Below, piece after piece: positions 16,668 to 17,263 of a stretch of DNA of 64,000 nucleotides (position 1 is its first letter; each line of letters opens with the position of its first letter). Source of the DNA: an uncultured Clostridia bacterium (GTDB lineage: Bacteria; Bacillota; Clostridia; Oscillospirales; Ruminococcaceae); contig CANQLI010000002.1 in NCBI GenBank assembly GCA_947624675.1, positions 1 through 64,000 on the forward strand. Direction: 5' to 3'. The notes beneath the pieces were generated by a model, which was not told the DNA's origin, did not search any database, and saw only the letters and a program-made list of their open reading frames with translations. Both the position numbers and the translations under genes were made by a program.

Positions 16668-16937
16668 TCAAAGCTCACCGATAAACGGATTTGCAAACAT
16701 AAGAAGCAACGCTACTACAAACGCATAAATACCGGTAGACTCTGCAATAGCACAACCGATAAACATCGTTCTTGTACAGTCGCCCGAAGCCTCAGGCTGT
16801 CTTGCCATAGACTCAATCGCCTTTCCTACCGCAAATCCTTCACCTATACCAGGTCCGATACCCGCTATCATAGCAAGTCCTGCACCTATTGCCGACGCAC
16901 CCATTACTATTGCTTTTGCCAAAAGATTCATATCCAT
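16668..16937 (-). CDS. atpE: ATP synthase F0 subunit c, copy 1 (sodium-type ligand set)
   Basis: An 89-residue two-helix proteolipid of the rotor ring. The frame opens at 16952, but the ATG at 16937 is eight bases after GGAGG and gives the N-terminus MDMNLLAKA, closely resembling the sodium-dependent Ilyobacter c subunit. Helix 2 carries the essential Glu66 in IAESTGIY. Ser67, Thr68, Tyr71 and Glu33 occupy the positions of the Na+ ligands (Ser66, Thr67, Tyr70, Gln32) of Ilyobacter, with Glu33 giving the two-carboxylate variant known from Fusobacterium. The loop has the standard RQP. Sodium coupling is inferred from these residues. A second, different c gene lies upstream. Confidence 0.95.
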
Positions 16938-17005
16938 ATTTTTATCCTCCAATCAATAATATCCTCAATAAATATATTAAACAGAACCTATCTGCCAATA
17001 CCTTT

Positions 17006-17263
17006 TTAGAGCAAATCAACAAAAGGATTTGCAAACATTAAAAGAAGTGCTACTATAAGCGAAAATACACCCATACTTTCACTTATTGCCGCTCCTATAA
17101 ACATCGTTCTTAAACAGTCACCGGAGCTTTCCGGAAACCTTGTACAAGCGTCAACAGCACTTCCCACAGCATAGCTGACACCTATTCCGGGACCGATCCC
17201 TGCTATCATAGCCGCACCGGCGCCGATCGCCGAGCAAGCATAAATCAAACTCTCAGCTGTCAT
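17006..17263 (-). CDS. atpE: ATP synthase F0 subunit c, copy 2 (ligand set altered)
   Basis: An 85-residue two-helix c subunit, first of the tandem pair, directly downstream of atpB. The frame is open to 17350, but the ATG at 17263 has AGGAGG seven bases upstream and fits the family length. It keeps the ion-carrying Glu62 and Ser63 (ISESMGVF). The positions equivalent to sodium ligands are Val29, Met64 and Phe67 instead of Gln/Glu, Thr and Tyr. The loop reads TRFPESSGD rather than ARQPEASGD. If assembled with copy 1 it would give a mixed ring; it could also form a proton-type or non-equivalent site. Confidence 0.93.
   Translation of the reverse strand: MTAESLIYACSAIGAGAAMIAGIGPGIGVSYAVGSAVDACTRFPESSGDCLRTMFIGAAISESMGVFSLIVALLLMFANPFVDLL

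Follow-up and report, generated by a model that had tools for sequence, protein, structure and literature searches.

In the rotor rings of Na+-type ATP synthases, the ion-binding site is built from adjacent c subunits. In I. tartaricus, Gln32 and Glu65 of one subunit are described as binding the ion together with Ser66 and the carbonyl of Val63 of the neighbour, and Tyr70 of that neighbour steadies Glu65 (PMC2359735). The site of F. nucleatum resembles that of I. tartaricus, with Glu32, and Na+ is ligated by both Glu32 and Glu65 (PMC3692424). Rotors with more than one kind of c subunit are described in acetogens. C. aceticum and A. woodii share an arrangement of unlike tandem c genes (PMC7911925), and in the hybrid rotors of acetogens a carboxylate is missing from the odd subunit, with a lower ion-to-ATP ratio as the consequence (PMC7911925; PMC5662883). 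Transcript figures exist for atpE1, atpE2 and atpE3 of A. woodii, and they contain no ring ratios (PMC10472528). Below, the divergent member of a set of unlike c genes is called odd and the other regular. Mixed rings do exist, since PDB entry 4bem, which we take to be the ring of A. woodii (chains A and J were compared), has nine chains that bear the name c2 in that entry and one that bears the name c1.

Two c genes in one ATP synthase operon

The window, which is the whole stretch of 64,000 nucleotides analysed here, comes from a gut bacterium. On its minus strand lies an F-type ATP synthase operon that is complete, in the order atpI, atpB, c2, c1, atpF, atpH, atpA, atpG, atpD and atpC (Table 1). 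The order around the c genes is atpB-c2-c1-atpF, so that c2 is the first c gene and directly follows atpB. An earlier note on this DNA had proposed two tandem F-type c genes, and this holds: both lie on the minus strand, both exceed the cut-off of 24 for Pfam ATP-synt_C (PF00137) with 68.2 bits for c1 and 47.5 bits for c2, and the pair is present in five genomes of the genus. Each is a single hairpin, and the carboxylate of helix 2 is kept in c1 (Glu66) as well as in c2 (Glu62). A whole-genome search with PF00137 (assembly 99.99% complete, 49 contigs) matches c1 and c2 only, with no third c gene. An assembly error or chance is an unlikely source of the pair, because the same two genes recur in the same order in five genomes of the genus; the two PF00137 matches are also the only ones in this genome. 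GGAGG is found just upstream of the start codon of both genes, and the frame and ribosome site of both are intact in all five species with two c genes.

Table 1. Genes and spacer of the ATP synthase operon in the window
Feature	Position	Strand	Remarks
atpI-like gene	18005..18433	-	named from position and translation
atpB, subunit a (stator)	17293..18039	-	sole copy in operon; named from translation
atpE2 (c2), altered c subunit, 85 aa (P0002)	17006..17263	-	Val29, Glu62, Ser63, Met64, Phe67; loop TRFPE
c2-c1 spacer, 68 bases	16938..17005	-	holds c1 ribosome site
atpE1 (c1), two-carboxylate Na+-type c subunit, 89 aa (P0001)	16668..16937	-	Glu33, Glu66, Ser67, Thr68, Tyr71; loop ARQPE
atpF, subunit b	16110..16625	-	named from translation
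atpH, subunit delta	15568..16110	-	named from translation
atpA, subunit alpha	14020..15540	-	named from translation
atpG, subunit gamma	13101..14003	-	named from translation
atpD, subunit beta	11684..13081	-	named from translation
atpC, subunit epsilon	11250..11672	-	named from translation

No terminator-like site is found in the spacer between c2 and c1. A promoter-like match is present there (16998-16971, 10 of 12), and the region holds three such matches against 2.2 expected from shuffled sequence, which is not above chance. The start region of c2 is predicted to fold somewhat more tightly (-7.3 to -9.9 kcal/mol) than that of c1 (-3.3 to -6.8 kcal/mol) in all five genomes; this difference is too weak to serve as a guide to the ratio of c1 to c2. 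These features bear on the idea of an isoform switch, in which c1 and c2 would form separate homomeric rings and the c2 ring, tolerant of H+ or of low Na+, would serve under other conditions. c2 is indeed a complete hairpin with a conserved carboxylate, and its more structured start region and the promoter-like match make separate control conceivable, although neither is strong. However, c1 and c2 adjoin in one operon with a single atpB and with no terminator-like site in the spacer. The unlike subunits of A. woodii, the best-known tandem pair of this kind, co-assemble (4bem), and the changed loop of c2 would face gamma and epsilon at every position of a homomeric ring. We consider such a switch quite unlikely.

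Outside the operon, the part of the window from 24094 to 64000 looks like a conjugative element. The six open reading frames scanned in this putative element encode a serine recombinase (24094-25788), a lysozyme/CHAP protein (34588-36381), a TraG/HerA-like ATPase (37702-40146), a coupling protein (42615-44408), a protein of 2709 residues with LPD25, methylase and SNF2 helicase domains (50975-59104) and a SpaA-repeat protein (62295-63980).

Residue changes, spread and selection of c2

The complete two-carboxylate Na+ site claimed for c1 is borne out, and every side-chain ligand of the F. nucleatum site (Glu32, Glu65, Ser66, Thr67 and Tyr70, whose numbering is used below) has its equivalent in c1 (Table 1), with an RQP loop. 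Glu at position 32 and the RQP loop occur in all 37 c loci compared from the genus and family, which represent 35 distinct genes (G005 and G006 are counted twice, and the genome of G241 has further c genes). Judged by these residues, c1 is the usual two-carboxylate Na+ subunit that its relatives have as well.

c2 lacks this full ligand set. Fourteen alignment columns separate all five c2 proteins from all 15 c1 proteins of the genus; seven of them lie around the cytoplasmic loop (positions 40-54), and another is position 32. Here the ligand of helix 1 is lost in every c2, Glu32 being replaced by Val in three species and by Ile in two (G001 and G002). Compensating residues at this ligand position were looked for by alignment, and no polar substitute was found, only Val or Ile in 5/5. 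The same position is changed in none of 97 control loci (60 from the class, 37 from the genus and family; 95 distinct genes), and it is therefore unlikely that the change is incidental. The residues and the RFP loop attributed to c2 in the earlier note (Table 1) are as stated, and its list of ligand losses stands for helix 1 in all five species; for Thr67 and Tyr70 it stands in three only, since the changes to Met and Phe are confined to the c2 of the window's species, G008 and G014. The ligand set thus reads Val, Glu, Ser, Met and Phe in the window (G000), and Ile, Glu, Ser, Thr and Tyr in G001 and G002. As Thr67 and Tyr70 are kept in the latter two, only the loss of the helix-1 ligand is general to c2, and with Ser66 kept as well a weak Na+ site is possible there. 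Mitochondrial H+-type c subunits likewise have Met and Phe at positions 67 and 70.

The loop has changed as constantly as the site across the five c2 proteins, a point absent from the earlier reading: RQP has become RFP in G000, G001 and G002 and RYP in G008 and G014. One glycine of the packing motif is also changed in each c2, and it differs by sub-clade (GPGIGVS in G000, GPAIGIG in G001). For comparison, 60 control c genes were taken from outside this family, from the upper part of a list of 156 class genomes with one match among the matches listed (such genomes may hold a more distant c gene elsewhere); G554 (GQG, RQP), also a one-match genome, was fetched and left out of the 60. These controls lean to Na+-type sequences, and at position 32 all 60 carry either Gln (41) or Glu (19). 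Their loops are RQP in 49, RNP in eight and NQP in three, with an aromatic loop residue in none, and Phe replaces Tyr70 in one. Since RNP and NQP occur among the controls, a loop change alone is no proof of hybrid status.

c2 is present in five of the 15 genus genomes (G000, G001, G002, G008 and G014) and absent from the other ten. This search of related genomes for conserved tandem copies agrees with the view that the pair is unusual, and a DNA pattern for the c2 loop is found in only 4 of 396 family genomes, all of this genus, the fifth carrier, G014, being outside that draw. In a tree of AtpB, the five hosts group as a single clade with support of 97/97 (18 rows, 15 from the genus and three from the family; the AtpB pattern was matched in 18 of the 25 loci given, and seven family outgroups dropped out). 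The five c2 proteins also form one clade (100/99), which is placed among the c subunits of the genus in an alignment of 77 columns, and the deeper forks of this tree are weak because the alignment is so short. A gain of c2 from outside the genus is unsupported, as c2 falls among genus c subunits; the branch joining c1 and c2 has only 76/73, so that an origin within the genus is unproven as well. c2 is apparently a lineage-specific duplicate of single origin. Within the five genomes c1 and c2 share 62-71% identity and are not the near-identical copies expected of a dosage duplicate.

Selection on c2 is strongly purifying. In four close pairs, dN/dS of c2 is 0.013, 0.018, 0.011 and 0.022 (Nei-Gojobori), and in the same pairs c1 has 0.015, 0.019, 0 and 0. 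The values for atpB are 0.021, 0.034, 0.065 and 0.038, and those for atpF and atpH lie at 0.032-0.077 and 0.066-0.181. Thus, dN/dS of c2 is about as low as that of c1 and below that of atpB over synonymous distances from 0.24 to 1.17, in pairs that are non-independent and in some of which dS is near saturation. c2 is therefore a working gene and no relic. That c2 is a decaying duplicate without a function of its own would agree with its missing ligands and with its absence from 10 of the 15 genomes; we regard it as very improbable in the face of dN/dS of 0.011-0.022 and of a frame and ribosome site that are intact in all five species. Between sub-clades, dN is larger for c2 (0.16-0.19) than for c1 (0.05-0.07) in the three of six pairs compared, and c2 therefore seems to have changed early and fast, and later to have settled into somewhat different forms in each sub-clade.

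The ion pumps of the genus were compared as well. The NqrB/RnfD/RnfE family and OadB each have one match in every one of the 15 genus genomes (the OadB match is partial in G004), and membrane pyrophosphatase has no match in any of the 15. The RnfD-family and OadB-family matches fit a sodium cycle, as far as family membership indicates. Species with two c genes and those with one do not differ in these three families, and because they have the same set, no factor among those compared explains why only some species keep c2. A change in the stator was considered too. Many AtpB columns differ between the clades, the AFRLFGN stretch is the same, and there is no clear signal (14 of the 15 genomes, without G012); nor is a clear H+-type change seen in AtpB, in which AFRLFGN is kept.

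Odd c subunits across the class

Multiple c genes, which the earlier note had associated with a few acetogens, are more widespread than that, as at least 17 other genomes in a draw of 393 from the class have unlike tandem c genes. At E <= 1e-10, a threshold at which hybrids with weaker matches may be missed, c2 has more than one match in at least 28 of the 393. Among the matches listed, these 28 comprise the window's genome, 10 genomes with copies on separate contigs and 17 with unlike tandem c genes. Like the family genomes, those of the class are draws from larger groups.

In these 17 genomes the odd gene is always the first c gene, and atpB lies directly before it in 14; in the remaining three (G547, G643 and G791) the atpB pattern was unmatched in the stretch read. 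The odd subunit is a fused multi-hairpin protein in 14 genomes, which may share one origin and thus may not be 14 independent cases, and a single hairpin in three (G772, G829 and G869). RQP is found in none of the 46 odd hairpins and in all 24 regular copies. The odd copies of G772, G869 and G829 were partly recognised by their loops, so that this rule is independent of definition for 43 hairpins in 14 genomes. The ion sites of the odd hairpins are more varied: in 20, Glu-Thr-Ser is combined with Leu or Phe in place of Tyr70; in 23, the carboxylate is replaced by Gln; and three are complete. Gln32 is kept in all 46, and there is therefore no precedent in these genomes for the helix-1 loss of c2. 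The loop Arg, which c2 keeps, is changed in nearly all of them. Judging from these alignments, the trait common to all odd subunits surveyed is the non-RQP loop and not any one change of the site. All five c2 proteins share it (RFP or RYP), under a rule derived from this survey and from no published criterion. An odd subunit with a non-RQP loop, encoded by the first c gene, could be used as a simple sequence marker in searches for hybrid rotors, and the pattern suggests a contact with the central stalk that is peculiar to the odd subunit.

Some of these genes have forms of their own. In G588 the odd gene encodes six fused hairpins (L108, 865-2481, minus strand; an open frame of 538 codons), and in G714 (L109, 817-1869, minus strand) and G682 (L113, 377-1429) it encodes four. 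These three mix Glu and Gln at the carboxylate positions and are longer than the two-hairpin form of A. woodii. G772 (L103) has three tandem single-hairpin c genes and G869 (L104) at least two, the contig ending there. The first c of both has an N-terminal extension and an IRP loop that resemble parts of the fused c1 in L110, and it looks like a fused c1 reduced to a single hairpin whose site is intact.

The constancy of the loop raises the question of whether c2 serves mainly in structure or assembly, with a loop that orients the gamma/epsilon stalk or a helix 1 that sets the size of the ring, while the ion site merely tolerates the loss of ligands. Half of the c2-specific columns (7/14, at positions 40-54) would fit such a role, as would the changed packing glycine in each c2. 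All 46 odd hairpins are non-RQP while their site changes vary, and the odd copies of G772, G869 and G829 even have complete Na+ sites. Against a purely tolerated loss stands position 32, which is changed in 5/5 c2 proteins and in 0/97 control loci. A mainly structural c2 is thus rather unlikely in our judgement, and this reading overlaps with that of a hybrid rotor.

A possible hybrid rotor and its closest counterparts

On balance, we lean towards a hybrid c-ring of c1 and c2, in which c2 takes a specialised position that probably carries H+ or weakly bound Na+. Single-hairpin F-type subunits of two kinds would make up one ring. c1 would be the standard and probably the majority subunit, binding Na+ through two carboxylates, and c2 the specialised and probably the minority subunit, with its moving carboxylate kept. 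Because sites of the I. tartaricus and F. nucleatum type span adjacent subunits, a c2 flanked by c1 would alter the sites around it. The site that uses helix 1 of c2 lacks Glu32 and, with this ligand lost, could not form a full Na+ shell; c2 of the window's type, lacking Thr67 and Tyr70, would alter the site on its other side as well. The carboxylate must be neutral to pass the lipid side of the ring. Characterised rings are described as selective for H+, with Na+ bound only because of its large excess (PMC3692424), from which it follows that protonation would be the most likely state of a c2 site that is short of Na+ ligands. The ion that the c2 position moves past the same stator would then most likely be H+, or else weakly bound Na+. 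The retained carboxylate of c2 makes a change of ion more probable than the loss of one, and the number of ions per turn would be unchanged while the ion species would change at the c2 positions.

The loop may add a second role. Gamma and epsilon sit on the ring at the cytoplasmic loop, and the changed loop of c2 probably alters how its position meets the gamma/epsilon stalk. That the loop change is limited to odd subunits suggests that these occupy, or are kept out of, the contact with the stalk. Taken further, Na+ at c1 and H+ at c2 in one ring would set the ion mix per turn through one stator and would tie both the sodium and the proton gradient to ATP at a fixed ratio, with the loop of c2 as a defined seat for the central stalk. 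We put this dual-ion rotor forward tentatively, as a possibility of rather low probability. The pair of c1 and c2 offers a natural system in which to ask if two ions can drive a rotary ATP synthase within one turn.

The F/V-hybrid rotor of A. woodii likewise has unlike tandem c genes in one atp operon, with the odd gene directly after atpB. Its odd subunit also has non-RQP loops, and the first hairpin also has Phe at Tyr70. However, that subunit is a fused double hairpin with Gln32 kept and with Glu changed to Gln in its second hairpin, whereas c2 is a single hairpin that keeps its carboxylate and has lost the helix-1 ligand. The fused, V-type-like form with a lost carboxylate is thus not found in c2 (single hairpin, Glu62). 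The regular subunits differ too, being of the Gln32 type in A. woodii and of the two-carboxylate type here. While the hybrid rotors of acetogens lost a carboxylate, here the carboxylate is retained and a Na+ ligand is missing, and this suggests that some positions have changed their ion. The ring of F. nucleatum, presumably PDB 3zk1/3zk2, has all its side-chain Na+ ligands matched in c1. It is an 11-mer of one subunit, whereas the locus described here adds a c2 without Glu32 and, in three of five species, also without Thr67 and Tyr70.

Two further groups of tandem genes come from our own survey. G829, G772 and G869 have two or three tandem single-hairpin F-type c genes; in the first the loop is KRP or IRP instead of RQP, and unlike c2 their odd copies retain the Na+ site in full (Gln32, Glu65, Thr66, Thr67 and Tyr70). 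Five genomes of the same family (G033, G175, G220, G241 and G273) have two adjacent single-hairpin c genes, as here, but their copies are near-identical and H+-type, with Ile32, Glu-Ala-Thr and RQP loops (one KQP). By their sequences, these pairs (L073, L075, L092, L096 and L098, in G175, G241, G273, G033 and G220, respectively) look like simple dosage duplicates. G241 and G175 have further PF00137 matches elsewhere and may run more than one rotary ATPase. G116 (L097, 1462-1935) encodes a fused double H+-type F-like hairpin with Ile32, Glu-Ala-Thr, RQP and a carboxylate in both halves, followed by an atpF-like gene. We recognised no report in the literature of two unlike single-hairpin F-type c genes of the kind described here, although an earlier one may be in print. 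Unseen in the 46 odd hairpins, the loss of the helix-1 ligand with the carboxylate kept is, as judged from the proteins compared, a new form among unlike c subunits.
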